Of a stretch of 64,000 bases of DNA, positions 3,744-50,587 are shown piece by piece. Source of the stretch: Sycon ciliatum (lineage: Eukaryota; Porifera; Calcarea; Leucosolenida; Sycettidae); contig NC_088645.1 in assembly GCF_964019385.1 (NCBI RefSeq), positions 36,380,303 to 36,444,302 of the forward strand, in the 5' to 3' direction. Position 1 is the first letter of the stretch. Each line of letters opens with the position of its first letter. Below the pieces are notes generated by a model. It searched no databases and was not told where the DNA came from. It saw nothing but the letters and a program-made list of their open reading frames with translations. Both the position numbers and the translations under genes were made by a program.

Positions 3744-6700
3744 TTAAATAGCAATTTTATGAAAACGGTCCAGGTAGGTTTTCAGTGGAATAATAGCGTT
3801 TCCCGCTTCATCCATCAAGTATTCCTCCGGCTCCCAGGTGGCATCTCGGTAGCCCTTCCATTTCACTAGGTACTGCGTGCGCCGTCCTCTCTTCTTGTGC
3901 GACAACACCTTTTCGACAATGTACCGCGTATGGCCATCCGCATCGGTTAGGGGTGGAGGTGCCGGCTGAGTACGGCCCGGTATCTCATTGCCATGGTACA
4001 GCTTGAGGGCAGCAATATTGAACACTGGATGGGCCCGAATGATTCTTGGAAGAGCTAATCTGTACGCATTCGGGGCCACTTTCTTCTGCACCTTGAACGG
4101 CCCATACCACTTGGGCCTTAATTTGTGTGAAGGCCTGTCTCGTTCCTCGGGCGTCAGCAGGAAGTCCCTGAAGACCAACACGTCATCCCCCTCCTTCAGG
4201 GCGTCCTCCACCCGTCCTCGATCCGCATACAATGATTGCCGGGCCTGCGCCGCCACGATGGCATCCTGTGCCTCACGTAGTGCCTCTACGCGGCCATCCA
4301 GCCATGACAGCGGACCATTCGTGTCCATGCCAGCTCCAGCTTTCTGCTTCGTCAATAAGCTCGAGGGAGTAACTGGATGGCATCCATGGTTGAGGAAAAA
4401 TGGCGTGTTACCTGTTGACGCTTGATCGGCATTGTTGATCGCAAACTCACATAGCGATAGGAGTTCATCCCAATTGTTTTGCCTATGGTTGACGAAAGCT
4501 CTTAGCGTATCCTCAATGACACGGTTCACACGCTCAGTCATGCCATCGGTCTGCGGGTGGTTGGCCGTGCTCATTTTTAGCTTCACGCCAAGAATACTGA
4601 AAACCTCCTTGAAGACCGCCGACGTGAATCGCGGATCTCGATCACAAACTATCGTTTTGCTCAAGCCATGGGCAGCAAACACATGATCCACGTACAATCG
4701 GGCTGCCTCCTTAGAGTCAACATGAACAGTCGTCGGGATCAGGTGCACATACTTCCTCAGACGGTCCACAAAGGTTAGAATGGCGCTATGTCCTCAGCAG
4801 GTCAGCGGCAGTGCCATGATGAAATCCATGCTGATGTCTGTCCAGGGCTGTTCGGGGACTGGAAGGGACTGCAACAGTCCTGCCTTGGTCTGGCTACCCT
4901 TTACGCGTTGGCACCGGTCGCAAGATTTAACGAAGTCCTTCACAGTACTTCTCATGCCTGGCCAATAGAAGTATCTGCTCAGCTTCAGGTAGGTCCTGTC
5001 TCTCCCCGGATGGCCGGCCGTCAGGCAATCATGATTCTGTTTCAGCAGTTGCAGCCGTACCGGACCGCGAGGAATGCAGAGGCGAGCATCGCCCGATGTT
5101 ACTAGGTACAGCCGCCGGTCCACACTGTTCCAGACGTATCGCTCATGCATGGCGTCTTCGCTGCAAGCCATCAAGCGCTTGATTACTGGCGAAAGCTCTG
5201 GGTCACTATCATACCCTGCTGAGATCTGATTCGCAATTCCTTGATTCACATCGAGAGAGAACTCGATTCCATTCAGTTCCAAGTCTGGTCGACGTGACAA
5301 CGGGTCTGCTATGTTGCACTTCCCTGGCTTGTGATGTACCGTGTAGTCATAGTCGGCCAGGAATTCAATCCATCGAGCCTCTCTCTTGGTTAAGTTTGGT
5401 TTGGTCCTGAGGTAGACAACTCCCATGTTGTCGGTGTAGAGTTGAAAGTGGCGAAATAGGTAGACTCGCCAGCACTGCAGGGCGTACACTACAGCCAAAG
5501 TTTCTCGCTCGGCGGCCGTGTAATTCCGTTCGGCAGAAGACAGCTTTCGGCTCACGTAAGCCACAGGATGCCAGGACTGGTCCTCTGCTTGCTGCGTCAA
5601 GACTCCTGCCACAGCGAAGTCACTTGCGTCAGTCTCAACGCGGAAATCCTGACTGACGTTTGCTAGTCGCAACACTGGTGCATCCAGCAGAGCAGACTTC
5701 AATCGCTCAAATGCCTCCTGTCGAGTCTGATTCCACTCGAAGCGCACATGTTTCCCTGTCAGTTCCTCCAGGGGTTTGGAGATGGCCGAGAAATCGTTAA
5801 TGAACCTTCTAAAGTAATTAGCGAATCCCAGAAACTGTCTTACGTGCGTGACCGTCGTCGGGACAGGCCAGTTATGCACGGCCTTGATCTTCTCTGGATC
5901 TGGAGAAATGCATTGGCCGTCTATCCGGTGCCCAAGAAACAGAACGTCTGTCCGGCCGAATTCACATTTAGACGGTTTGCAATATAGCTCATTCCTCCTG
6001 AGGGTGTTTAAGATGGTTCTGACATGATCGAGGTGCTCCTCCCATGATTTGCTGAATATGAGGATATCGTCTAGAAACACCACAACGAATTTACGCAGGT
6101 ATGGCTGGAGGACACTGTTCATCAAGGTTTGGAATGTTGCCGGGGCATTTGTTAGGCCGAAACCCATCACTGTGAACTGAAAGTGACCGAATGGGGTATT
6201 TATTGCTGTCTTCGGAATATCTTTTTCTTCTATTCGAATCTGATTGTAACCGGACCTCAGATCTAGCTTGGTGAAATACGCACTGCCTTGGACGGTATCA
6301 AAGAGGTCGTCAATATTCGGTAGGCATGCCTTGTTCTTAATGGTTATGCGGTTTAGCTCACGCCAGTCGCATACCATTCGAAGTGTTCCATCCGCTTTCT
6401 TTACGAAGAACACAGGGGATCCGTATGGGGATTTGCTGGGCTGGATGAATCCTCTACGGAGCAGCTCGGTGAGCTGAGCTTGAAGCTCATCCATCTCTGG
6501 TTTTGGTAAACGATATGCTGCACGAGATGGCGGTTTAGCTCCTTCTTCCGTTTTTATCTCGTGATCTGCGCCTCTTCTGGGTGGCAGCTTGTTTGGAAGC
6601 TCATCGGGAAAGACGTCCCCGAACTCCTTCAGCAGGTCCTTGAAATCCTTCTAATCCTCCCTACCCGGACTATCCACCGTCTGTGGCTCGTCTGGATCTG

Positions 6701-7478
6701 CTGTCACATACGCTAGGATTCCTTCTGCGCCACCTCTCATTGCATGCCTAGCCTGCTTCCCTGAGATGAGGAACGTCTCGATCGGTGGGTTGGATTTGTC
6801 CGTGCCATCACTTTCACTCGGTTGACAGATGATGGATCCACCCTCCAGCTTGATTTCATTGGTACGAAAATTGATCTGTGGGTTCGTCCGGGTCAGCCAT
6901 GGTTTGCCGAGGATCACGTCACACCGCATCATAGGGAATACTAGGAACTGTTGGTGCTCGCTAAAGTCGCTGTCCGTTTTCGTAATAGGCTGTGAGCGGA
7001 CCGATCCATCAGCAAGTGTGACGTTCAGGACGTCGCTACCGGTTGTTGTGGAGATGTTGTGCTTCTTGACAAGGTCAGTTGAAATGAAGTCGTGGGTTGA
7101 CCCAGTATCCAGTAGCATGGTAACGCGACGTCCATTTATCTTGCCCTGGACGCGCATTAGGTCGTGTTCGTTGTCGGCGGAAATGCTCCCTGTGCTGGCG
7201 GTTACTTCATTAGGCCGGCAAACAGTATCAGGTGACGAATGCTTGAGAGGCGAGGCTTGAATTTCGGTCTCCTCGAGGCGTGGTTCCTCATTTGCTAAGG
7301 GGCTGAATTTGTTCTGAACTTTGATTCGTGGCCTATTCCTGGGTGCTCTCGTGTTCGCCAGTAGTCGCACTCCCTTCCTTACTGGCGTCCATCGTTTAAA
7401 GAAGGCTTGCTTGTGGCGTTCCTCCCTCCTTCTGGACAGAATCTGGCAATGTGGCCGGGTTTCCTGCAGGTGAAACAC
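3744..7478 (-). pseudogene. pol: Gypsy pol: protease, RT, RNase H, integrase, chromodomain (two in-frame stops)
   Basis: One reading frame from 7478 to 3744, broken by TAG at 6651-6653 (between protease and RT) and TGA at 4794-4796 (inside integrase, just after the first catalytic Asp region, SMDFIMALP). The protease has DTGSTHDF. The RT has the WRELN region, KLDLRSGYNQI (motif A) and VVFLDDILIF (FLDD catalytic box). RNase H has TDASD and the YTDN motif. Integrase shows the zinc-binding His/Cys region (AGHPGRDRT through CDRCQ), the second Asp in CDRDPRFTS and the Glu in MTERVNR. The final ~55 residues are a chromodomain (YLVKWKGYRDATWEPEEYL), known in this family to direct integration toward modified chromatin. 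The frame is -1 relative to gag, consistent with a programmed -1 shift in the overlap at 7379-7478. Both stops are simple nonsense mutations in an otherwise open frame. Confidence 0.93.
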
Positions 7479-8271
7479 AGCCTTGAACGACCCTCTGGCT
7501 CCCTGGTTTCTCTCCCGCCGGATGGTGTTGGTTGGCTTGACCAGGGTCCAGGCTGGCGCCTCTGATGCCCTGGTGCGCGCACTGCCTTGGCGTAGCTTGC
7601 TTGGGCTAGCCGCATCGACTGGTCTGCTGAGACCGCAGCTCGTATGGCTTGGGCCAAATGTTGCGGATGCTCCCTAAGTACCTCACCGCTCAGGCCCTGA
7701 GCCAGCCCACGCGTGAACAAGATAGCTCTGGAGTGGTCATCAAGCTCGGGAACTTGTAAGCTAAGCCGCGAAAATTTGTTGATGTATTCGTCAAGAGTCT
7801 CAGAGTCTCATCTTGGTGAAGAGCGAATAAGTCGATGCGCGCCTGTTCCCTGTCATAAACCGGGCCGTACACTTCTCCCAGCTTGCTCTTCAGGTCTGGC
7901 AAGTCGGAAAACAGCGTGTTTGCCTCCTGAGAGGCGATAAACCAAAGACGAGCGTTGCCCTCTAGAAAACTCGCCGCGTAGCTCAAGCGCTCCTCCGCGT
8001 TGTCCAGCTGCAGGGACTTCATGGCGAGTTCGATGGCGAAGGCCCACTCCTTGAACTCTCTTGTATCTCCACGAAACACAGGCGGAGACTTAACATGGCG
8101 CATGCGTGGCCTCTCTCCGCTGGGAGCTTGAGCACGTCTTGGCGTTTGATCTGATCCATCGCACTGACCGAGTGCGATAAGGTGCTTCAGACGCTTCTGA
8201 ATCTCGAATATACCGTAGGCGACTAATGCGGCCACTGCGCAAAGCCCGAACATGACGAAAAGAAAAACCAT
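7379..8271 (-). pseudogene. gag: Gypsy gag with CCHC zinc knuckle (frameshifted)
   Basis: Upper frame from an ATG at 8271 (inside the primer-binding site; another at 8253) to about 7800, lower frame from about 7800 to 7379. The switch sits at an 8-bp tandem duplication (AGAGTCTC twice, about 7792-7809), which moves the second half into another frame. The N-terminus is unusually hydrophobic (residues about 8-24 after the first ATG look like a membrane segment). A capsid-like region follows. The C-terminus carries a nucleocapsid knuckle CFTCRKPGHIARFC (CX2CX4HX4C). An ATG at 8298 lies within the LTR and is not the likely start. Confidence 0.85.
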
Positions 8272-8284
8272 CCTCTTGCTACCA
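8268..8284 (-). promoter_or_regulatory. Primer-binding site, initiator tRNA-Met type
   Basis: One base after the 5' LTR the minus strand reads TGGTAGCAAGAGGATGG. The complement of the animal initiator tRNA-Met 3' end is TGGTAGCAGAGGATGG. The two match except for one extra A. This is a known primer choice among LTR retrotransposons. Confidence 0.8.
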
Positions 8285-8285
8285 G

Positions 8286-8781
8286 TGTAACAGTCCAACT
8301 AACTTCAGTAGTCATTCTTGGAATAAGCAATTATCCTTGCAAACCAGGCAGGCACAGTGGGTTGGTCAGAGACCATGATTGAGATACGAGAGGTACCTGG
8401 TTCAAGTCCTGCCTGGGAGCGGTTTTTCCAGCCGTGCTGCTACCCACAGTCAACTGGGAACTTGTGGCCAGGCACAAGGGGTACATGGATGCAGCTAATG
8501 GGGTCGCTTTCGGCACTTGTGCCAGTGGTTGTGAGACTTACCCACTCACCCCCACCGTTAGGTGCTGCATCTGCCGCTAGGGTTTATCGGGTGTTAGCGG
8601 CCGTCGTGAGTTCCCTTCGGGAACGGATAAGATAATTTACTTTTACTTTACTTGCCATAATGCATTCTTATATACAGGAACAAGCAATGATGAACATAAC
8701 ACCTAACAGCAGCAGCGTGATAATAGCAGGTGATAAGTGTATCCTATTCCTAGTGTTAGTAGTAACAGTGAATCTGTTACA
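8286..8781 (-). repeat. 5' LTR of the Gypsy element, split by a SINE
   Basis: The LTR body (8286-8340 plus 8656-8781) is the same 181 bp as the 3' LTR. The difference of 315 bp equals a 310-bp SINE plus a 5-bp target duplication. The SINE therefore inserted after the Gypsy element. Confidence 0.93.
8341..8650 (+). mobile_element. tRNA-derived SINE (family SINE1)
   Basis: 310 bp flanked by CTTGC (8336-8340 and 8651-8655). The head contains a tRNA-like B box GGTTCAAGTCC about 50 bp in, preceded by a weak A box. A unique body follows and the 3' end is a TTTACTTTTACTTTA-type repeat. Related copies lie at 12257-12560 (-), 13765-14068 (-), 29325-29595 (+) and 55358-55632 (+). Multiple copies, an internal Pol III promoter, target duplications and an empty site in the sister LTR together define a SINE. 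It has no coding capacity. Confidence 0.88.
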
Positions 8782-9192
8782 CGGAGTACGATTTTTCGTG
8801 CCATTAGGGAGGTTTAGTTCCCACGTAACGGAAACGCGTACGTGGATGAAGGGCACCCACGTTGCAAAGTTGTGTTTAGTCACACGGAACAAACAGAAGC
8901 ATGAAGCGAAAGACCCAAACCTGGTCAAAGACGAAGCTACCCGGGCCTTAGAAGCTCATCCAGTATTAATCCTAGTGTTAGTAGTAACAGTGAATCTGTT
9001 ACACGGAGTACGATTTTTCGTGCCATTAGGGAGGTTTAGTTCCCACGTAACGGAAACGCGTACGTGGATGAAGGGCACCCACGTTGCAATGTTGTGTTTA
9101 GTCACACGGAACAAACAGAAGCATGAAGCGAAAGGCCCAAACCTGGTCAAAGACGAAGCTACCCGGGCTTAAGAAGCTCATCCAGTATTTTG
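8749..9192. repeat. 222-bp direct tandem duplication (LTR end plus flank)
   Basis: 8749-8970 and 8971-9192 are near-identical direct copies. Each contains the last ~33 bp of the Gypsy 5' LTR, the CGGAG target duplication and the start of a MITE. The duplication must therefore postdate the Gypsy insertion. Confidence 0.9.
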
Positions 9193-11342: not shown

Positions 11343-11545
11343 ATTTGGAAAGGATTGGGAGAACTTCATATTCAAAGGATCAGTCGGGGAAGTGAACTGC
11401 CTGAAAAGAGAAAAAAACGCCAGACCCACCAGGACATCCTGGTGGGTCTGGCGTTTTTTTTGTTTTTGTTTTTTTTTTCTCTTTTCAGGCAGTTCACTTC
11501 CCCGACTGATCCTTTGAATATGAAGTTCTCCCAATCCTTTCCAAA
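11343..11545. repeat. Large palindrome of SINE2 body sequence
   Basis: Two inverted arms of about 92-110 bp meet at 11435-11436 (AGGACATCCT at the centre). The arms are SINE2 3' sequence. The right arm has an extra T-rich stretch. As single-stranded DNA or RNA it would form a long hairpin. Confidence 0.85.
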
Positions 11546-12078
11546 TAATAATAATAATAATAATGGTAGAAGAGAAAAGAAAAGGACATATGGATACGAG
11601 TTAAGAGTAAATATCCATCACCGTAACATGATACTATATACAGTCAGAAAGTGCAATAACTAGGCACAATACTGACAGAGTACTGAAACATTCGAGGTCC
11701 TGACACCTAGCTTCAACACATCTCCGTAGCGCTAACCGACAGCCTTCCAACTTGGAAGGTTCAAGGTTATGGAAAGACCAAAGAGGGGAAGGCAAGCGCA
11801 ACGAAAACGAGCAAAAGCTACAGTCCCAACGGACACAAAGAATGTCGATTGTTACTGGACGATGACGAGACCAGTACGATATTTGACAAAGCGGTCTAAC
11901 TACAATTCGAAGCAGCAAAGCAGCACACCACCCAGCTTGGGTGGGTCATAAATATCAAAGATAAGTAAAGAAAGGGAAGCTTTGCGAAAACGAATTGTAC
12001 AAGCCGAAAGCCAAACTCCTACAGTACTCCTCATGCATGACATTGTGATGGACTAGTTGACTACAAAACAAATTGTTT

Positions 12079-12127
12079 CACACGACATACGTTTCGCCGT
12101 ATGGTTTGCGACGGCTCATCAGGTGTG
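12079..12127 (-). ncRNA. Hammerhead ribozyme 1
   Basis: Minus strand: stem I CACAC/GTGTG, core CTGATGA, stem II GCCGT/ACGGC with a 10-nt loop, GAAA, short stem III within ACGTATGT, cleavage triplet GTC. All conserved core bases are present. Stem III alone is 2 bp with a 4-nt loop, but ACGTATGT is self-complementary (8 pairs including two G-U), so two adjacent ribozymes could pair as a dimer, as known for short-stem-III hammerheads. Confidence 0.92.
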
Positions 12128-12256
12128 CAATTTGAAACTCGGATTATGAGCCATAAATAAATGTAGAAGAGAAAAGAAAAGGACATATGGATACGAGTTA
12201 AGAGTAACTATCCATCACTGTAACATGATACTATATACAGTCAGAAAGTGCAATAA

Positions 12257-12560
12257 AAAGTAAAAAGTAAATTATCGTATCCGTTCCCGAAGGGAACTCA
12301 CGACGGCCGCTAACACCCGATAAACCCTAGCGGCAGATGCAGCGCCTAACGGTGGGGGTGAGTGGGTAAGTCTCACAACCACTGGCACAATTGCCGAAAG
12401 CGACCCCATTAGCTGCATCCATGTACCCCTTGTGCCTGGCCACAAGTTCCCAGTTGACTGTGGGTAGCAGCACGGCTGGAAAAACCGCTCCCAGGCAGGA
12501 CTTGAACCAGGTACCTCTCGTATCTCAATCATGGTCTTTGACCAACCCACTGTGCCTGCC
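12257..12560 (-). mobile_element. SINE1 copy inside a retrozyme unit
   Basis: 304 bp with target duplication AGTGCAATAA at 12247-12256 and 12561-12570. The uninterrupted sequence is seen in the neighbouring units, which gives the empty site. Confidence 0.92.
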
Positions 12561-12989
12561 AGTGCAATAACTAGGCACAATACTGACAGAGTACTGAAAC
12601 ATTCGAGGTCCTGACACCTAGCTTCAACACATCTCCGTAGCGCTAACCGACAGCCTTTCAACTTGGAAGGTTCAAGGTTATGGAAAGACCAAAGAGGGGA
12701 AGGAAAGCGCAACGAAAACGAGCAAAAGCTACAGTCCCAACGGACACAAAGAATGTCGATTGTTACTGGACGATGACGAGACCAGTACGATATTTGACAA
12801 AGCGGTCTAACTTCAATTCGAACCAGCAAAGCAGCACACCACCCAGCTTGGGTGGGTCATAAATATCAAAGATAAGTAAAGAAAGGGAAGCTTTGCGAAA
12901 ACGAATTGTACAAGCCGAAAGCCAAACTCCTACAGTACTCCTCATGCATGACATTGTGATGGACTAGTTGACTACAAAACAAGTTGTTT

Positions 12990-13038
12990 CACACGACATA
13001 CGTTTCGCCGTATGGTTTGCGACGGCTCATCAGGTGTG
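12990..13038 (-). ncRNA. Hammerhead ribozyme 2
   Basis: Same 49-nt motif as ribozyme 1 with an intact core (CTGATGA, GAAA, GTC), stem II GCCGT/ACGGC and stem I CACAC/GTGTG. Confidence 0.92.
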
Positions 13039-13586
13039 CAATTTGAAACTCGGATGTTGAGCCATAAATAAATGTAGAAGAGAAAAGAAAAGGACATATG
13101 GATACGAGTTAAGAGTAACTATCCATCACTGTAACATGATACTATATACAGTCAGAAAGTGCAATAACTAGGCACAATACTGACAGATTACTGAAACATT
13201 CGACGTCCTGACACCTAGCTTCGACACATCTCCGTAGCGCTAACCGGCAGCCTTCCAACTTGGAAGGTTCAAGGTTATGGAAAGATCAAAGAGGGGAAGG
13301 CAAGCGCAACGAAAACGAGCAAAAGCTACAGTCCCAACGGACACAAAGAATGTCGATTGTTACTGGACGATGACGAGACCAGTACGATATTTGACAAAGC
13401 GGTCTAACTACAATTCGAAGCAGCAAAGCAGCACACCACCCAGCTTGGGTGGGTCATAAATATCAAAGATAAGTAAAGAAAGGGAAGCTTTGCGAAAACG
13501 AATTGTACAAGCCGAAAGCCAAACTCCTACAGTACTCCTCATGCATGACATTGTGATGGACTAGTTGACTACAAAACAAGTTGTTT

Positions 13587-13635
13587 CACACGACATACGT
13601 TTCGCCGTATGGTTTGCGACGGCTCATCAGGTGTG
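13587..13635 (-). ncRNA. Hammerhead ribozyme 3
   Basis: Intact 49-nt hammerhead, 597 bp from ribozyme 2. This interval defines the monomer length that two cleavages would release. Confidence 0.92.
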
Positions 13636-13764
13636 CAATTTGAAACTCGGATTATGAGCCATAAATAAATGTAGAAGAGAAAAGAAAAGGACATATGGAT
13701 ACGAGTTAAGAGTAACTATCCATCACTGTAACATGATACTATATACAGTCAGAAATTGCAATAA

Positions 13765-14068
13765 AAAGTAAAAAGTAAATTATCGTATCCGTTCCCGAAG
13801 GGAACTCACGACGGCCGCTAACACCCGATAAACCCTAGCGGCAGATGCAGCGCCTAACGGTGGGGGTGAGTGGGTAAGTCTCACAACCACTGGCACAATT
13901 GCCGAAAGCGACCCCATTAGCTGCATCCATGTACCCCTTGTGCCTGGCCACAAGTTCCCAGTTGACTGTGGGTAGCAGCACGGCTGGAAAAACCGCTCCC
14001 AGGCAGGACTTGAACCAGGTACCTCTCGTATCTCAATCATGGTCTTTGACCAACCCACTGTGCCTGCC
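13765..14068 (-). mobile_element. SINE1 copy, duplicated together with its host unit
   Basis: Occupies the same site in the unit as 12257-12560 and has the same target duplication (one copy mutated to ATTGCAATAA at 13755-13764). It is a duplicate of one insertion, not an independent event. Confidence 0.92.
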
Positions 14069-14497
14069 AGTGCAATAACTAGGCACAATACTGACAGAGT
14101 ACTGAAACATTCGAGGTCCTGACACCTAGCTTCAACACATCTCCGTAGCGCTAACCGACAGCCTTTCAACTTGGAAGGTTCAAGGTTATGGAAAGACCAA
14201 AGAGGGGAAGGAAAGCGCACCGAAAACGAGCAAAAGCTACAGTCCCACCGGACACAAAGAATGTCGATTGTTACTGGACGATGACGAGACCAGTACGATA
14301 TTTGACAAAGCGGTCTAACTTCAATTCGAAGCAGCAAAGCAGCACACCACCCAGCTTGGGTGGGTCATAAATATCAAAGATAAGTAAAGAAAGGGAAGCT
14401 TTGCGAAAACGAATTGTACAAGCCGAAAGCCAAACTCCTACAGTACTCCTCATGCATGACATTGTGATGGACTAGTTGACTACAAAACAAGTTGTTT

Positions 14498-14546
14498 CAC
14501 ACGACATACGTTTCGCCGTATGGTTTGCGACGGCTCATCAGGTGTG
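14498..14546 (-). ncRNA. Hammerhead ribozyme 4
   Basis: Intact 49-nt hammerhead on the minus strand. The next unit (14547-15087) is cut off before its ribozyme by an inversion junction at about 15087. Confidence 0.92.
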
Positions 14547-15268
14547 CAATTTGAAACTCGGATGTTGAGCCATAAATAAATGTAGAAGAGAAAAGAAAAG
14601 GACATATGGATACGAGTTAAGAGTAACTATCCATCACTGTAACATGATACTATATACAGTCAGAAAGTGCAATAACTAGGCACAATACTGACAGAGTACT
14701 GAAACATTCGACGTCCTGACACCTAGCTTCGACACATCTCCGTAGCGCTAACCGGCAGCCTTCCAACTTGGAAGGTTCAAGGTTATGGAAAGACCAAAGA
14801 GGGGAAGGCAAGCGCAACGAAAACGAGCAAAAGCTACAGTCCCAACGGACACAAAGAATGTCGATTGTTACTGGACGATGACGAGACCAGTATGATATTT
14901 GACAAAGCGGTCTAACTACAATTCGAAGCAGCAAAGCAGCACACCACCCAGCTTGGGTGGGTCATAAATATCAAAGATAAGTAAAGAAAGGGAAGCTTTG
15001 CGAAAACGAATTGCACAAGCCGAAAGCCAAACTCCTACAGTACTCCTCATGCATGACATTTTAATGGACTAGTTGACTACAAAACAAGCTAGGTGTCAGG
15101 ACCTCGAATGTTTCAGTACTCTGTCAGTATTGTGCCTAGTTATTGCACTTTCTGACTGTATATAGTATCATGTTACAGTAATGGATAGTTACTCTTAACT
15201 CGTATCCATATGTCCTCTTCTTTTCTCTACTACATTTATTTATGGCTCAACATCCGAGTTTCAAATTG

Positions 15269-15317
15269 CACACCTGATGAGCCGTCACAAACCATACGGC
15301 GAAACGTATGTCGTGTG
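15269..15317 (+). ncRNA. Hammerhead ribozyme 5 (inverted unit)
   Basis: Same motif on the plus strand, in the inverted terminal segment. One base of the stem II loop differs (A instead of G). Core and stems are intact, so the difference is neutral for folding. Confidence 0.92.
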
Positions 15318-15862
15318 AAACAACTTGTTTTGTGGTCAACTAGTCCATCACAATGTCATGCATGAGGAGTACTGTAGGAGTTTGGCTTTCGGCTCGTACA
15401 ATTCGTTTTCGCAAAGCTTCCCTTTCTTTACTTATCTTTGATATTTATGACCCACCCAAGCTGGGTGGTGTGCTGCTTTGCTGCTTCGAATTGTAGTTAG
15501 ACCGCTTTGTCAAATATCGTACTGGTTTCGTCATCGTCCAGTAACAATCGACGTTCTTTGTGTCCGTTGGGACTGTAGCTTTTGCTCGTTTTCGTTGCGC
15601 TTGCCTTCCCCTCTTTGGTCTTTCCATAACCTTGAACCTTCCAAGTTGGAAGGCTGTCGGTTAGCGCTACGGAGATGTGTTGAAGCTAGGTGTCAGGACC
15701 TCGAATGTTTCAGTACTCTGTCAGTATTGTGCCTAGTTATTGCACTTTCTGACTGTATATAGTATCATGTTACAGTGATGGATAGTTACTCTTAACTCGT
15801 ATCCATATGTCCTTTTCTTTTCTCTTCTTCATTTATTTTTGGCTCAACATCCGAGTTTCAAA

Positions 15863-19841: not shown

Positions 19842-20308
19842 AGTACACATCTCTGTATGTATGCTCGTGTGGCGACCACCCCTGCCCGTACACTAAAGTA
19901 GTCATTAACACTCAAGCCCTGCCCACCCAATTCTTCCCCACCCTTTCTCCTTTCTTACACTATTATCTCTTATTGGCCACTGGCTATCGTAAGAATAAAG
20001 ATTTGAAACAACAACAACAACAACAACAACGCGAAATCCCTTCTCGTACTCCCTTCAAATCCGAGATATCCCTGCTGTTGCACAACTCTGTATGCTCGTG
20101 TAGCGACCACCCTGCCGTAAAAGTACGCAACTCTGTATGCTCGTGTGGCGACCACCCCTGCCCGTACACTTAAGTAGTCATTAACCCCTAGGCCCTGCCC
20201 ACCCAATTCTTCCTCACTGTTTCTCCTTTCTCACACTATTATCTCTTATTGGCCACTGGCTATCGTGAGAATAAAGATTTGAAACCACAACAACAACAAC
20301 AACACAAC
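19842..20308 (+). mobile_element. Two short LINE-A 3' ends, each with (CAA)n
   Basis: 19842-20006 and about 20032-20284 are 5'-truncated copies of the last 165-250 bp of LINE-A (end of ORF2, the TTATTGGCCACTGGC stem-loop, GAGAATAAAG). Each is followed by (CAA)n (20008-20031 and 20285-20305). The second starts directly at the end of the first one's CAA tract. Confidence 0.9.
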
Positions 20309-22889
20309 GACATACAAACTCTGCTACACACATACGGCCTCACACAACATGTCAGATTCCCTACTTACATCAACCGACAAACACCTCTCTCATGTCTAGA
20401 CCTTGTTATCTCCTCACCCCACACCAATGATATTCATATCCAATCACTTCCACCGTTTGGCGCATCCGATCACACTACTATCAGTGGCCACATCAATAAT
20501 CAACTGCCCCCCATAATTAACAACTCCCCTCCACGATCCAAAAGCACCACTTTCTGGTCATGGACAGACAGCACTATCCACCTTCTTCGAGAAGCCCTTT
20601 CACGCACAAATCTGAACCACCATCCAAACCAACACGACCCATGCCCAGTTGACACCTTCTGGCGATCCTGGCGCGACAATGTCCTGAGCATCGCCCAAGA
20701 ACACTGCCAAGTTACTCACACTCACCCCCCTTGGGACAGGAAGAACGTGCCAGCACGACCATGGATATCAGAGGGCCTCTTAAAAGAGATCAAGGATAAG
20801 CACAGAAAACACAGAATATACCTTCACTCCCGCTCGCCTGACGACTGGAACACGTTCACTGCCCAAAGAAACCGTGTCACCACCCTCCTGCGTCGTGCTA
20901 AATTGGATTTCGTAAACAACTCAACAGCCTCCTCTACTTCCCTACACCGCCTCATGAAGCACCTAACTACAACTACAAAACAACGCATACCCGAACTCGT
21001 CAGCCAAGCAACTCCTGCAACGACACCAGCACAAAAAGCCGCTGCCCTCAACGAATTCTTCATTTCCCTGAGCAAGCTGTCCATGGCCACTGCGGATGAG
21101 CAAACTCCAGCCATCAACACCACCCCTGACATCCTCAGTCCCCTTCAAGAAATCTCGACTTCCCAAGCTGAGGTCGAAAAACTCCTCCGCGGAGTTGATA
21201 CCAACAAAAGCCCCGGGTTTGACTCTATTCCAAACCGCCTACTCAAAAAAGCGGCTAAGGAACTTGCACCGTCGTTATCGTCCCTCTTTAATCTATCGTT
21301 CCAAAATGGAGAAATCCCACAGGAGTGGAAAGATGCCACCATTACTCCAGTACCCAAGCCGGGTGACCCAACCCAACCAACAAATTATAGACCCATCTCT
21401 CTCTTGAGCACTACATCAAAAATCCAAGGAAAAATTGCACATCAACTCCTCTACAAGCACATCACACCCCACCTGCCCAACCAGCAGTCCGGATTCCGCG
21501 AGAAAGACGGCACTGAGCAGCAGCTCGCCCGTCTCGTCCATACCCTCTCCACTGCGAGAGACGACGGAAAACACGTCAATGCCTGCTTTTTCGATCTAAG
21601 CAAGGCCTTCGATGGTGTGTGGCATGCAGGCCTTCTAGCAAAACTCTCCCACTATGGTGTCCAGGGCAACGTCCTGGAGTGGTTCCGACGGTACCTGTTG
21701 GGGCGTCGGCAAAGGGTCCAGGTGGATGGCGACCTATCGCCTTTCCTCGAGATCCCTGCCGGTGTCCCTCAGGGATCTGTTCTTGGGCCGCTTCTATTCC
21801 TCGTCTACACCATAGACCTTCCACACGCATGTGAGAATCCCAGCACCACCTGTAGCCAGTTTGCAGATGACACCGCTCTGATTTCCATAGCGAGAACTCT
21901 TCAAGACTGCACCCGAAACCTACAACAGAGTGTCACAGCAGCTGGAGACTGGCTTCAAAGATGGCACCTGCTGGTTAACACAAAGAAAACAGTCGTCCTC
22001 CCGTTCTACCACAATAACCGCCCCCCTGAACAGCTACCCCAGATCACCCTCAGGAATAGTCCGCTTACCGTAGCACAAAAAAACAAACACCTCGGAATAA
22101 TCTTTCAGCATGACCTCCGTTGGACGGAGCATGTTGAATACATAGTCAAAAAATCACTCAAGTCTTTCAATATTCTTTTTAGACTAAGGTCTACACTCAC
22201 CAGTGATTCTTTATCTCACATCTATCAGACATACATACTACCTATATTCTCATATGCGAGCACTGCTCTCACACCGTTGTCCCACACTTCCCTTGACAGG
22301 CTAGAACGACTCCAGCGGAAAGCCGCCAGAATATGTCTCCACCTTCCCCTTTACACACACTTAGAACACTCCCACCTTTTGCATCGCATCAAATGGCCAA
22401 CATTATTTTCACGCTTTAAAGTTAAACATATACTCTTCGCGCATTCTCTGCGCCACGATTATGCCCCACCACATATACTCTCGCTGCATACTGCTAGCAA
22501 CGTGCAACCTTCGTATAATTTACATCGCTCTCGTACTTGGGACTTGCCAACTCCGCGGACTGACCGCTGTCTCCATTCTCCCCTGTACAAGGCCCTTCAT
22601 TACTTTAATTGCCTGCCCACCCAGCTTCGCGAAATCCCTTCTCGTACTCCCTTCAAATCCCAGATATCCCTGCTGTTGCACAACTCTGTATGCTCGTGTA
22701 GCGACCACCCCTGCCCGTACACTTAAGTATGCAACTCTGTATGCTCGTGTGGCGACCACCCCTGCCCGTACACTTAAGTAGTCATTAACCCCTAGGCCCT
22801 GCCCACCCAATTCTTCCTCACTCTTTCTCCTTTCTTACACTATTATCTCTTATTGGCCACTGGCTATCGTGAGAATAAAGATTTGAAAC
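20309..22889 (+). mobile_element. LINE-A copy, 5'-truncated in the endonuclease, ORF2 open
   Basis: Non-LTR retrotransposon copy. The frame runs through the CAA tract and stays open to 22726 (about 805 LINE codons). It begins in the last third of the endonuclease and keeps the SDH motif (GASDHTTI). RT motifs are YRPISLL, CFFDLSKAFDGVWH (a G where sister copies have R), GVPQGSVLGPLLF and QFADDTAL. The C-terminus ends with the Cys motif SVCSCSDHPC. The 3' UTR repeats the last ~55 bp of the coding region once and ends with stem-loop, AATAAAG and TTTGAAA. It is nearly identical to 48170-50749 and probably belongs to the segmental duplication. RT could be intact; the endonuclease is not. Confidence 0.92.
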
Positions 22890-34982: not shown

Positions 34983-41795
<6,813 letters not shown>

Positions 41796-44100: not shown

Positions 44101-47004
44101 TGAAAACAGTACCATATTTCGACAACCTCTGCTCCTCAAGCCCTAGTTCCTCTCAATCCGAACGCTACACCTTTCCAACCCACTGTTACAAGAACAGTGC
44201 TTGCACCGTTGGAGCAAGATTTGACCATTGCATTCCTCAACATTTGTAGTCTGCGCTACAAAGTACATGAACTGTCGGACCTGGTGCATTCGATGGACTG
44301 GGACATTGTCGGTGTGGCCGAGACTTGGCTCACCAACACAGTAGCTAACAATGAGATAGAAATATCTGGATACAGCCTTGTCAGGCTGGATCGAGCCGGC
44401 CGTCCTGGTGGAGGTGTGTGCCTGTATTACAGGGCTACACTTCCTGTCACCGTACAACCAGATTAGAAGGTGGACGGTATTGAAGCCGTGTGGATCAGTC
44501 TGCACCACTCCAAACAGCGGCACCTTTTTGCGTGTATGTATCGCCCCCCTGCTGAATCAATTCATTATTGGGACAGATTTGAGCAGGCTCTTCACCAGGC
44601 TGCAGTGGTATCACCATCTGTCACCCTGCTTGGTGACTTCAACATTAATGTTAGCTCAGCTGTAACACCTCAGCTCCACCGTTTCAATGATGCAATTCAC
44701 TCTTTCGGTTTGAGAAATTTAGTTTCTGTCCCAACCCGAATAACCCCAAGATGTCCCGTCGGCACAACACTGGACCTGATCCTCACCAGTAGCCCTGCTA
44801 CAGTCTCCTGCAATGTCGTACCCTGCACTCTGAGTGATCACTCGGCCGTACATGCTAGACTGGACCTCGCGCTACCGTCCGCTAAGCATCAACACTCCTC
44901 GCAACGCCGGGGAACCAGTTTAACCCGCAACATGCGCACCATAAACCTTCCAGAATTTCGGGATGAGCTTGCCAATGCCAACCTGAGCGTGTTCCAATCG
45001 ACTTCATCCACTGATGAGATGTGGAGCACTTGGCACACTAAATTCATGTGTGCTCTTGACAGACATGCCCCTCTCAAATCCACCAGCAGGAAGGCGAGCT
45101 CATATCCCCCATGGTCTGACAGGGAATTGTACCAACTCCAGTGTCGCAAGAAAAGGCTACGTCACCAGTGGCTTCAGAAGAAGGACAGCACCCATCTCTA
45201 CTCGGCATTCAGGCGTGCCCGTGCGGCTGCCAGAAATGCCTATCGTAGGAAACGCAATGAGTATTTCCAAATCCAATGTGCTGAACATAGTCGCAATCCA
45301 CGCAAACTGTGGCATATCATCAACACTGTAACATCTCGAACTCGCCAACGTATTGAGCCAACGTGTGATGTGGAGGATGTCGCCACAGCCTTCAGTAAAG
45401 TTGTGACTGATAATGATAGACCCCCTGTGCTCACCATGCCACAGGGTCCATCACGCCCCACAGCGTTATCAGCTTTCCAGTATGTCCGAACCAACTCTGT
45501 TTATCGTCTCCTGAGAGGCATCAATGCAGCCAAGGCCACAGGCAGTGACAGCATCCCAGGAGTACTTCTGAAGTGCTGTGCTGATATCATTGCTCCGTCT
45601 GTTGCTGCTCTCTTCAATGCCTCACTATCCCGTGGTACAGTACCCTCTGCCTTCAAGCTTGCACACGTATCACCGCTATATAAAGCTGGTGACCCAGCAG
45701 TTCCCACTCACTTCCGTCCCATTTCCCTTCTCCCAATCCTGTCCAAGCTTTTAGAGAAGCTAGTGCAGAAGGAACTTGTATCAGTCATGAACATCACGGA
45801 GTCACTTCCCTCCACTCAGTTTGCATTTCGCAGCGGCCATTCCACTGAGGATGCACTAGCTCTCATCACCAACCGTATCCTTACTGCCCGGGTCAAAGGA
45901 ATGTACACAGGTGTCTGCTTACTGGACATGTCCAAAGCATTCGATAAAGTTAGACATCACCAACTAATTCTCGACCTCTTCAATGTTGGTGTCACGGCCA
46001 CAGCCCTGCGGTGGTTCATTTCTTACCTCTCCGAACGGACCCAGCGTGTGTGTATCGGACCATCACGCAGCACTATCACTCTCTGCACCTGCGGAGTGCC
46101 ACAGGGATCTGTGCTCGGCCCCATTTTGTTCAACATATACACTCGGGAAATACCCAATGTTGCTGGACATGCTTTGTCTTTGCAGTTTGCAGATGACATT
46201 GGTCTCACTTGCAGCAAACCGACTAAGTCTGAAGTGTCTGCAATTCTGTCTGCGTCAGCTTCAGCTATTGCTAACTGGCTAAACGACCGTGGCTTGATCC
46301 TGAATGCTTCCAAAAGCCAGGTGATCTCCATTTCCGGGAACCTACCTGAGAAGCATACTCCACTCTCGGTGAACTGTAACGGGACCCTGCTGCCTCTTGT
46401 GGAGTCTGCCGGGTACCTTGGCGTAACATTTGATAGCAACATGTCTTGGGATGACCACGTAACCCGCTGTGCAAACAGTGTATCACGAAAGATCGGAGTC
46501 CTGTGGAGGATGCGGCGTTGCCTCAGCACACAGGGTCGGATAACTTATTTCCAGTCCATCATAATGCCCGATCTTCTATATGGATCAAATGCATTTTCGA
46601 CATCTCTGGCAGCCAGGCACTGTCATCGACTACAGGTTCTGCAAAACCGTGGTGCCCGTGTAGTGTTCGGACGCCCGCCGTGGACATCCGCACATGACCT
46701 ACTGGAGCGCCTCTCACTGTATCGGGTTACCGAAGTGTACAAGCAGAAGCTGGCATTCCTTGCATGGCGCTGCCGTTACGGCCAAGCAAGTCCTGAGCTT
46801 CAGGTTCTCTTACTGCCAGCTTGTGGCCGGTCCACGCGCCTGGACTCCAGCATGGGTCTCTGCCTGCCACCCGCCCGCAGCAACTCTGGAAAGGGGACAT
46901 TCGCCTTCCAGGGTGCGCTATGCTGGAACAACCTGCCAAGCAGTATTCGCTCCATCTCTGTTCCTCGTCAATTCCGTGCTGCCGCAGTCCCGTTTCTTCT
47001 ATGA
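44101..47004 (+). pseudogene. LINE-E ORF2: endonuclease and RT with one in-frame TAG
   Basis: One frame with a single TAG at 44464-44466, inside the endonuclease between AETWL and the MYRPP motif. Endonuclease motifs are LNICSL, VAETWL, MYRPP, LLGDFNIN and LSDHSAV. RT motifs are FRPISLLP, CLLDMSKAFDKVRHH, CGVPQGSVLGPILF and QFADDIGL. The C-terminus includes LQVLQNRGARVVFG and ends at 47004. No ATG is present at the 5' end of the open region; the first usable codons are GTG 44197 or an internal ATG. The frame opens three bases after the ORF1 stop, so coupled translation is plausible. Confidence 0.9.
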
Positions 47005-47774
47005 ACTGAGAACATTGCAAAGCAATTGTATGTGTGGCTGTCAATGTACATGTGTGTGTGTGTATATGTGTGTGTGTTGTGCGTGTGTGTGTGTGTGTGT
47101 GCACGCGCGCGTGTGTGTGTGTGTGCACGCGCGCGTGTGTGTGTGTGGGGGGGGGGTATGTGTCTAAGTATGTGTGTATTGGTGCGTAGGTGTGGGTATG
47201 TACATGTAGATGTATGTGTGTGTGTTTGTGTGGATGTGTGGATGTGTGGGTGTGTGGATGTGTGGATGTGTGGGTGTGTGGATGTGTGGGTGTGTGGATG
47301 TGTGGATGTGTGGATGTGTGGGCGTACATGTAGATGTGCAATGCTTCGATTTCTCTATCTTCTCTTCTCTTCTCTCTTCCTTTCGGGGTCTCCCGCTTCT
47401 GGGCCGGCATGGCCCATGCTTCATGCGTGCTTGTTCCTGGTGTTGTTTTGTCTACTGTGTCCTGCCGCTACTCCGGCTTTGGCCGTGACCACGATGTGTC
47501 TCCCCATTTTCTCCTTCATCCTTTCCTTTGTCTTTTTGCTAAAAGCTTTCTTCTCGCCGTGACCACGATTTTTCTTCTTCTTCTTCTTGTCCATTATTCT
47601 TTTTTTTTCCTTCCTTTCTCTTCTTCCTTTGCCGAGAACCTTCTGTTCCCATTATTTTCTTTTCATCTCTGTCCCCATTCCTGGGTTATTTGGACTTCAT
47701 TCGCTTCCTTGTCATTGGACATGTTCAGTCCGTTCGGTTTGCGAATTTAAATAAACACAACCAACCAACCAACC
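47005..47774 (+). repeat. LINE-E 3' UTR with (TG)n and pyrimidine-rich tract
   Basis: TG/CACG repeats at 47050-47160, GTGTGGAT repeats at 47225-47325, then a CTTCT-rich segment to about 47740 and the end TTTAAATAAACACAA(CCAA)n. Confidence 0.85.
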
Positions 47775-47780
47775 AACTAT

Positions 47781-50587
47781 CAGTCATTGCAGTCCAGGAA
47801 ACCTGGGCTGACACATCAGACCCTGACAGTCTCTATGCAATCCCAGGCTACAAGCTGATCAGAGCTGACAGACAGGACTATGGTGGTGGTGTTGCCTTGT
47901 ACACAGCGGAAAGTTTCAACACAAGGGTACTGACAATACCAATGACAGCAGCAGAATGCATATGGACGAGAATTTCCACCGGTAACCTTTCCCTCGTTGT
48001 TGCAAACATTTACCGACCACCCCGTAGCGATGGCACCCTCTTCTGTGCGGAACTGGAAAGAAGCATCAAAACCGCTAGAGCCGAAGGTGACGACCTCCTA
48101 CTACTTGGAGACTTCAATGCCAAGAACAGTGCGTGGCTCACCACAGACAGAACAGATCGCCTTGGGGACGACATACAAACTCTGCTACACACATACGGCC
48201 TCACACAACATGTCAGATTCCCTACTTACATCCACCGACAAACACCTCTCTCATGTCTAGACCTTGTTATCTCCTCACTCTACACCAATGATATTCATAT
48301 CCAATCACTTCCACCATTTGGCGCATCCGATCACACTACTATCAGCGGCCACATCAATAATCAACTGCCCCCCATAATTAACAACTCCCCTCCAAGATCC
48401 AGAAGCACCACATTCTGGTCATGGACAGACAGCACTATCCACCTTCTTCGAGAAGCCCTTTCACGCACAAATCTGAACCACCATCCAAACCAACACGACC
48501 CATGCCCAGTTGACACCTTCTGGCGATCCTGGCGCGACAATGTCCTGAGCATCGCCCAAGAACAATGCCAAGTTACTCGCACTCACCCCCCTTGGGACAG
48601 GAAGAACGTGCCAGCACGACCATGGATATCAAAGGGCCTCTTGAAAGAGATCAAGGATAAGCACAGAAAACACAGAATATACCTTCACTCATGCTCGCCT
48701 GACGACTGGAACACGTTCACTGCCCAAAGAAACCGTGTCACCTCCCTCCTGCGTCGTGCTAAATCGGATTTCGTAAACAACTCAACAGCCTCCTCTACTT
48801 CCCTACACCGCCTCATGAAGCACCTAACTACAGCTACAAAACAACGCATACCCGAACTCGTCAGCCAAGCAACTCCTGCAACGACACCAGCACAAAAAGC
48901 CGCTGCCCTCAACGAATTCTTCATTTCACAGAGCAAGCTGTCCGTGGCCAATGCGGATGAGCAAACTCCAGCCATCAACACCACCCCTGACATCCTCAGT
49001 CCCCTTCAAGAAATCTCGACTTCCCAAGCTGAGGTCGAAAAACTCCTCCGCGGAGTTGATACCAACAAAAGCCCCGGGTTTGACTCTATTCCAAACCGCC
49101 TACTCAAAGAAGCGGCGAAAGAACTTGCACCGTCGTTATCGTCCCTCTTTAATCTATCGTTCCAAACCGGAGAAATCCCACAGGAGTGGAAAGATGCCAC
49201 CATTACTCCAGTACCCAAGCCGGGTGACCCAACTCAACCAACAAATTATAGACCCATCTCTCTCTTGAGCACTACATCAAAAATCCAAGAAAATTTTGCA
49301 CATCAACTCCTCTACAAGCACATCACACCCCACCTGCCCAACCAGCAGTCCGGATTCCGCGAGAAAGACGGCACTGAGCAGCAGCTCGCCCGTCTCGTCC
49401 ATACCCTTTCCACTGCGAGAGACGACGGGAAACACGTCAATGCCTGCTTTTTCGATCTAAGCAAGGCCTTCGATCGTGTGTGGCATGCAGGCCTTCTAGC
49501 AAAACTCTCCCACTATGGTGTCCAGGGCAACGCCCTGGAGTGGTTCCGACGGTACCTGTTGGGGCGTCGGCAAAGGGTCCAGGTGGATGGTGACCTATCG
49601 CCTTTCCTCGAGATCCCTGCCGGCGTCCCTCAGGGATCTGTTCTTGGGCCGCTTCTATTCCTCGTCTACACCATTGACCTTCCACACGCATGTGAGAATC
49701 CCAGCACCACCTGTAGCCAGTTTGCAGATGACACCGCTCTGATTTCCATAGCGAGAACTCTTCAAGACTGCACCCGAAACCTACAACAGAGTGTCACAGC
49801 AGCTGGAGACTGGCTTCAAAAATGGCACCTGCTGGTTAACACAAAGAAAACAGTCATCCTCCCGTTCTACCACAATAACCGCCCCCCTGAACAGCTACCC
49901 CAGATCACCCTCAGGAATAGTCCGCTTACCGTAGCACAAAAACACAAACACCTCGGAATAATCTTTCAGCATGACCTCCGTTGGACGGAGCATGTTGAAT
50001 ACATAGTCAAAAAATCACTCAAGTCTTTCAATATTCTTTTTAGACTAAGGTCTACACTCACCAGTGATTCTTTATCTCACATCTATCAGACATACATACT
50101 ACCTATATTCTCATATGCGAGCAATGCTCTCACACCGTTGTCCCACACTTCCCTTGACAGGCTAGAACGACTCCAGCGGAAAGCCGCCAGAATATGTCTC
50201 CACCTTCCCCTTTACACACACTTAGAACACTCCCACCTTTTGCATCGCATCAAATGGCCAACATTATTTTCACGCTTTAAAGTTAAACATATACTCTTTG
50301 CGCATTCTCTGCGCCACAATTATGCCCCACCACATATACTCTCGCTGCATACTGCTAGCAACGTGCAACCTTCGTATAATTTACGTCGCTCTCGTACTTG
50401 GCACTTGCCAACTCCGCGGACTGACCGCTGTCTCCATTCTCCCCTGTACAAGGCCCTTCATTACTTTAATTGCCTGCCCACCCAGTTTCGCGAAATCCCT
50501 TCTCGTACTCCCTTCAAATCCGAGATATCCCTGCTGTTGCACAACTCTGTATGCTCGTGTAGCGACCACCCCTGCCCTTACACTTAA
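47781..50587 (+). pseudogene. LINE-A ORF2, main part (endonuclease and RT), open
   Basis: 935 codons without a stop, continuing the frame cut at 42971. Endonuclease motifs are VQETW, IYRPP, LLGDFNAKN and GASDHTTI. RT motifs are YRPISLL, CFFDLSKAFDRVWH, GVPQGSVLGPLLF and QFADDTAL. The C-terminus is SVCSCSDHPCPYT. The first ~36 codons are 4.8 kb upstream, so the protein cannot be made intact. It is labelled broken only because of LINE-E. Confidence 0.93.

Follow-up and report, generated by a model that had tools for sequence, protein, structure and literature searches.

A hammerhead-bearing tandem repeat family of Sycon ciliatum with insertion ends resembling those of Penelope-like elements

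Described hammerhead retroelements and the Sycon unit

Metazoan non-LTR retrozymes, as presented in the main text of Cervera and de la Pena 2020 (PMC7229834), carry a type I hammerhead ribozyme once per tandem unit, are dispersed and multi-copy, and coexist with Penelope-like elements (PLEs); in amphibians, a weak stem III acts as a dimer. Expression as linear and circular RNA is a further trait of the class. The retrozyme RNAs given there measure ~170-400 nt and the genomic repeats 150-450 bp. The enzyme moving animal retrozymes is left open in the discussion of that paper and in the pertinent part of a 2024 review, with LINEs or PLEs being named. Plant LTR retrozymes, according to the same main text, are likewise hammerhead retroelements with a circular RNA, but differ from the element analysed here by a type III hammerhead, LTRs and 4-bp duplications.

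PLEs, in the available text of PMC3846280 and PMC11167929, show head-to-head copies, target duplications, AT-rich targets, a hammerhead and an optional tail of ~31-34 nt on one of two inverted ends. For Penelope, a 31-bp tail on one inverted pLTR and a target site duplication are described (PMC3846280), the tail lying between two reverse transcription start sites, with a preference for ATT and cutting of both strands (PMC11167929). PMC3846280 reports pLTRs carrying foreign sequence in trans, but nothing was found there to indicate that PLE families of a rotifer mobilise one another.

The insertion described here lies in a stretch of 64,000 nucleotides of the Sycon ciliatum genome (the window), and is a small parasitic DNA repeat, the RNA of which probably cuts itself by a hammerhead ribozyme. 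With metazoan retrozymes it has in common the single type I hammerhead per tandem unit, dispersal in many copies beside PLEs, and a similar stem III. The unit was found to be 584-597 bp long (858 and 911 bp with inserts), exceeding the reported repeats, as the first-pass annotation had noted in calling it longer than usual. With PLEs it shares the head-to-head copies, target duplications, AT-rich targets, hammerhead and tail, but the unit, holding fewer than 200 codons, is too short for a reverse transcriptase, and tblastn with one PLE protein revealed no PLE coding sequence in the window. The unit is, thus, non-autonomous, without an encoded reverse transcriptase; two open reading frames of 194 aa in the window span a SINE-like insert plus unit.

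A link between retrozymes and Penelope was proposed earlier by others, and the insertion ends now suggest it. The words 'inverted' and 'tail' are absent from the main text of PMC7229834, and a literature search confined to main texts, mostly outside subscription journals, returned no report of a Penelope tail in a retrozyme. A sequence test based on insertion ends could be applied in the same way to every other genome with retrozymes.

Array layout and hammerhead motifs

The features of the insertion are as follows.

11566..15860, no strand assigned: whole insertion, a long minus-strand arm plus a shorter plus-strand arm, with (AAT)n on both sides
near 15086: inversion junction, where the minus-strand arm meets the plus-strand arm
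11566..11580, minus: short-type 3' end adjoining (AAT)n, placed by eye
15827..15860, plus: tail of ~34 nt, separating the two favoured 3' ends at unit positions ~565 and ~599 (placed by eye)
12079..12127, minus: hammerhead motif (core/stem scan and Rfam)
12990..13038, minus: hammerhead motif (core/stem scan and Rfam)
13587..13635, minus: hammerhead motif (core/stem scan and Rfam)
14498..14546, minus: hammerhead motif (core/stem scan and Rfam)
15269..15317, plus: hammerhead motif of the inverted arm (core/stem scan; no Rfam listing)
12257..12560, minus: SINE-like insert of 304 bp in one unit (orientation and SINE label by eye)
13765..14068, minus: second copy of the SINE-like insert (310/310 compared bases identical)
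12247-12256 and 12561-12570: 10-bp duplication AGTGCAATAA flanking the insert at 12257..12560

The five 49-nt motifs reported in the first-pass annotation were recovered by an explicit scan with intact core and stems I and II, each of 5 bp, the CTGATGA element being located at 12122, 13033, 13630 and 14541 on the minus strand and at 15274 on the plus strand. The spacing along the array was 911/597/911/597, with one motif per unit. A similar scan detected five motifs in the window, none of them outside the array, and none in 150 dinucleotide shuffles. The inverted arms were confirmed as well; the inverted terminal segment, earlier taken for an oddity, furnishes the strongest evidence on the mode of insertion.

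Absence of a covariance match above threshold had been named in the first-pass annotation as refuting its reading, and this was formally the outcome, with no hammerhead in the whole window at the Rfam gathering score. Searching with RF00163, the four minus-strand copies scored 23.2 bits (E 0.04) against a gathering score of 34, and the plus-strand copy was missing from the matches at E<=10. The low score is likely due to the short stem III. The type I core is present in each tandem unit; within the family, the ribozyme region was no better conserved than the remainder of the unit (0.025 vs 0.022).

The extra 314 bp of the 911-bp unit consist of the 304-bp SINE-like insert and the 10-bp duplication. 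With one exact pattern, the unit/SINE junction was found once in the genome, in the window, the second window copy being off by one base. SINE-bearing units differ at 4/911 positions and units of unlike type at 11-12/597, and the two 1508-bp pairs are identical at 1496/1508. This match, together with the unique exact junction, points to a local duplication of a 1508-bp pair in the window array. That SINE-carrying circles of 911 nt are made, which the first-pass annotation had put forward as a possibility and at which the two SINE-bearing units might hint, and that they move, is highly improbable, given the single genomic occurrence of the exact junction. Its reading of a hammerhead array with a retrozyme-like, probably dimer-acting ribozyme is supported by the sequence, the number of genomic copies and the self-complementarity of stem III, whereas its 597-nt circles are a prediction.

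Elsewhere in the window, a perfect 75-bp inverted repeat at 11343-11546 adjoins the insertion, and a 222-bp unit occurs in two repeats with 98% match at 8748-9189. Frames resembling, by eye, LTR (integrase, reverse transcriptase) or non-LTR retrotransposons were seen at 3744-8298 on the minus strand and at 20192-22726, 38309-41245, 44467-47004 and 47543-50587 on the plus strand.

Genomic copies, insertion ends and target sites

An exact 35-nt ribozyme pattern matched the genome 1193 times (575 + 618 by strand), and the reversed control pattern gave 0 + 0 matches. The first places listed were all on one contig, many neighbours being 591-596 bp apart and some further. A DNA search of the genome yielded at least 96 matches, with 40 scored of 898 first-look candidates. 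Copies elsewhere in the genome, the absence of which the first-pass annotation would have taken as refutation, are, hence, present by both routes. The window element belongs to a real, large family that, judged by its anatomy, would be a retrozyme of unusual size.

On six array strands from the window and five loci, units of the same array diverged by 0.2% on average (25 pairs) and units of different arrays by 2.6% (128 pairs). Of the within-array pairs, 15 come from the six units of L073 and show zero differences, whereas L022 contributes none; the insert-bearing units (911 and 858 bp) can inflate the between-array value. Near-identical units within arrays are what repeated copying of a single circle, or duplication at the DNA level, could give.

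When the unit was compared by BLAST with the fetched loci, a non-random sample, 58 clusters emerged, 41 inverted and 17 not (non-inverted copies are found, e.g., in L003, L008, L016 and L072). In inverted clusters, by the definition used, the 3' ends of the hammerhead strand face outward. L001, L002, L005-L007, L009, L012 and L020 were left out of the end count for overlaps and L011 as near-identical to L010, L073 and L074 were added only after it, and HSPs shorter than 30 nt or with less than 82% identity were discarded. Excluding the two inverted clusters at a locus edge, in L064 and L069, 39 were counted, with wide bins of 553-567 for the short end and 584-600 for the tail end.

A short end paired with a tail end, ~34 nt apart, was found in 27 of these 39 clusters (16 short/tail, 11 tail/short), so that the Penelope-like trait of inverted copies with a tail of ~30-40 nt at one end is present in these; four of the 27 come from L022 and two from L028, which contains a repeated stretch, and in three cases (L022 at 7465, L052, L061) an end counted as tail terminates early. 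Short/short ends were seen in 0/39, tail/tail ends in 2/39, both in L028, and one end elsewhere in 10/39. As the script treated a plus piece with a minus piece after it as two insertions, tail-to-tail copies could not appear. In the window, the BLAST alignment extended into the microsatellite, for which reason it is counted with the ten, its left end being short-type by eye; L023, L026 and L030, also among the ten, resemble, by eye, elements split by later insertions.

Many copies reside in TAA/TTA repeats, and (TAA)n sites and target duplications flank copies. Inside such a microsatellite, a target duplication is unmeasurable; in several copies outside, both the duplication and the AT-rich target expected of Penelope-like insertion are present. 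The duplication in L029 is TAAACCATATTC, outside plain microsatellite, as is the case for L014 and, by eye, for L060 and L065. Duplications of ~7-13 bp were obtained for L029, L014 and L016 and, by eye, for L059, L060, L062 and L065.

Ribozyme action, insertion and alternative origins

Stem III reads ACGTAYGT in most copies examined and is self-complementary if G-U is counted, with 8/8 positions matching in four variants and 14/14 in the 14-nt version of L031. A copy in L023, ~71% identical to the unit, has kept the hammerhead core. The earlier proposal that stem III self-complementarity favours dimer action, thus, gains support at the sequence level from the 8-nt stem, and dimeric cleavage is the likely mode of ribozyme action. 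Hammerheads of PLEs reportedly act as dimers (Lunse et al. 2017). Fold prediction was rejected as support for a monomer ribozyme: the best fold was not the hammerhead in 3/3 sequences of one set, and in 4/5 variants an alternative fold was more stable than the monomer hammerhead, L031 being the exception; for the plus-strand copy, the monomer hammerhead fold had -7.6 and the best fold -12.4 kcal/mol.

We consider it probable that the element belongs with the animal non-LTR retrozymes, as a non-autonomous hammerhead retroelement, and owes its insertion to Penelope-like machinery. From the established motif, copies, ends, duplications and unit identity, we infer the following course of cleavage, circle formation and enzyme action. 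A multimeric RNA would be transcribed on the hammerhead strand, the ribozymes would cut as dimers after pairing via stem III, which is self-complementary, and the unit RNA would probably be circularised. A Penelope-like enzyme would then cut both strands of AT-rich DNA, and reverse transcription starting at two sites ~34 nt apart would result in head-to-head copies, unlike ends and the target duplication; repeated passage round the circle would give identical tandem units, which could also arise by DNA-level duplication.

Penelope-driven insertion is suggested because inverted copies, unlike ends ~34 nt apart and target duplications match published Penelope-like anatomy and PLEs occur in the genome. 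Against the overall reading count the Rfam score below gathering, the ribozyme region without extra conservation, the lack of a PLE with common ends among the loci scored, the rotifer result on cross-mobilisation and the alternative source of identical units by duplication. For animal retrozymes of this kind more broadly, we give an even chance to insertion by Penelope-like enzymes from two reverse transcription start sites ~34 nt apart, usually one per DNA strand, in which case unlike ends would be normal.

At least 148 GIY-YIG matches were found in the genome (150 scored of 944 candidates), some of the elements being in tandem with a 2935-bp period. A frame in L058 matched two models at E<0.001, RVT_1 and GIY-YIG, the scores falling just or clearly short of the curated cut-off. 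The 26 PLE loci scored, six of which were compared by BLAST, yielded no partner PLE with the same ends as the unit; at the single PLE end inspected, the likeness was limited to the 8-nt TTCTCTTC. L041 and L052 among these loci carry the unit, and L048 a 34-nt match. In L041 and L052 the unit looked at first like a PLE pLTR, and by eye the arrangement was then read as nested or adjacent insertions.

Some as yet unseen autonomous PLE may, though this is unlikely, have supplied the unit as its pLTR or in the form of a deletion derivative, in which case there would be no separate retrozyme family. The Penelope-type ends and tail would suit this origin, as would minimal hammerhead-like motifs obtained with a relaxed scan in 3/26 PLE loci (L037, L045, L058) and a PLE coding piece between unit copies in L022 (2563-3096). 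Yet both unit copies flanking this piece have short and tail ends of their own, the coding piece in L013 comes after one unit copy, and these two loci gave the only matches when one PLE protein was compared by tblastn with the window and 39 unit-bearing loci (182,395 bases, with L015 and L025 overlapping, and mostly the best-scoring of the 898 candidates). Even less probable is a satellite of the ordinary kind that DNA duplication has spread and homogenised, its hammerhead being a relic. The apparently local duplication in the window, with its identical insert and unique junction, and the unexceptional conservation of the ribozyme region agree with a satellite, but the dispersal of the copies, the recurrence of their ends and the target duplications argue against it.

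Copies of the window element were also seen in or beside Penelope-like coding sequence at L041 683-957 and L013 1128-2056. L058 represents a tandem Penelope-like element with a period of 2935 bp and an open frame of 902 aa, in which the relaxed scan picked up a pair of minimal hammerhead-like motifs separated by 2935 bp. Additional hammerhead-like motifs, differing in sequence, were located on the minus strand in L021 (9049), L026 (74) and L028 (4343, 5588 and 6839). In L008, a second hammerhead family with motifs at 808 and 1294 on the plus strand, a 486-bp period and a head-to-head inverted repeat of ~1 kb was found beside a copy of the window element.
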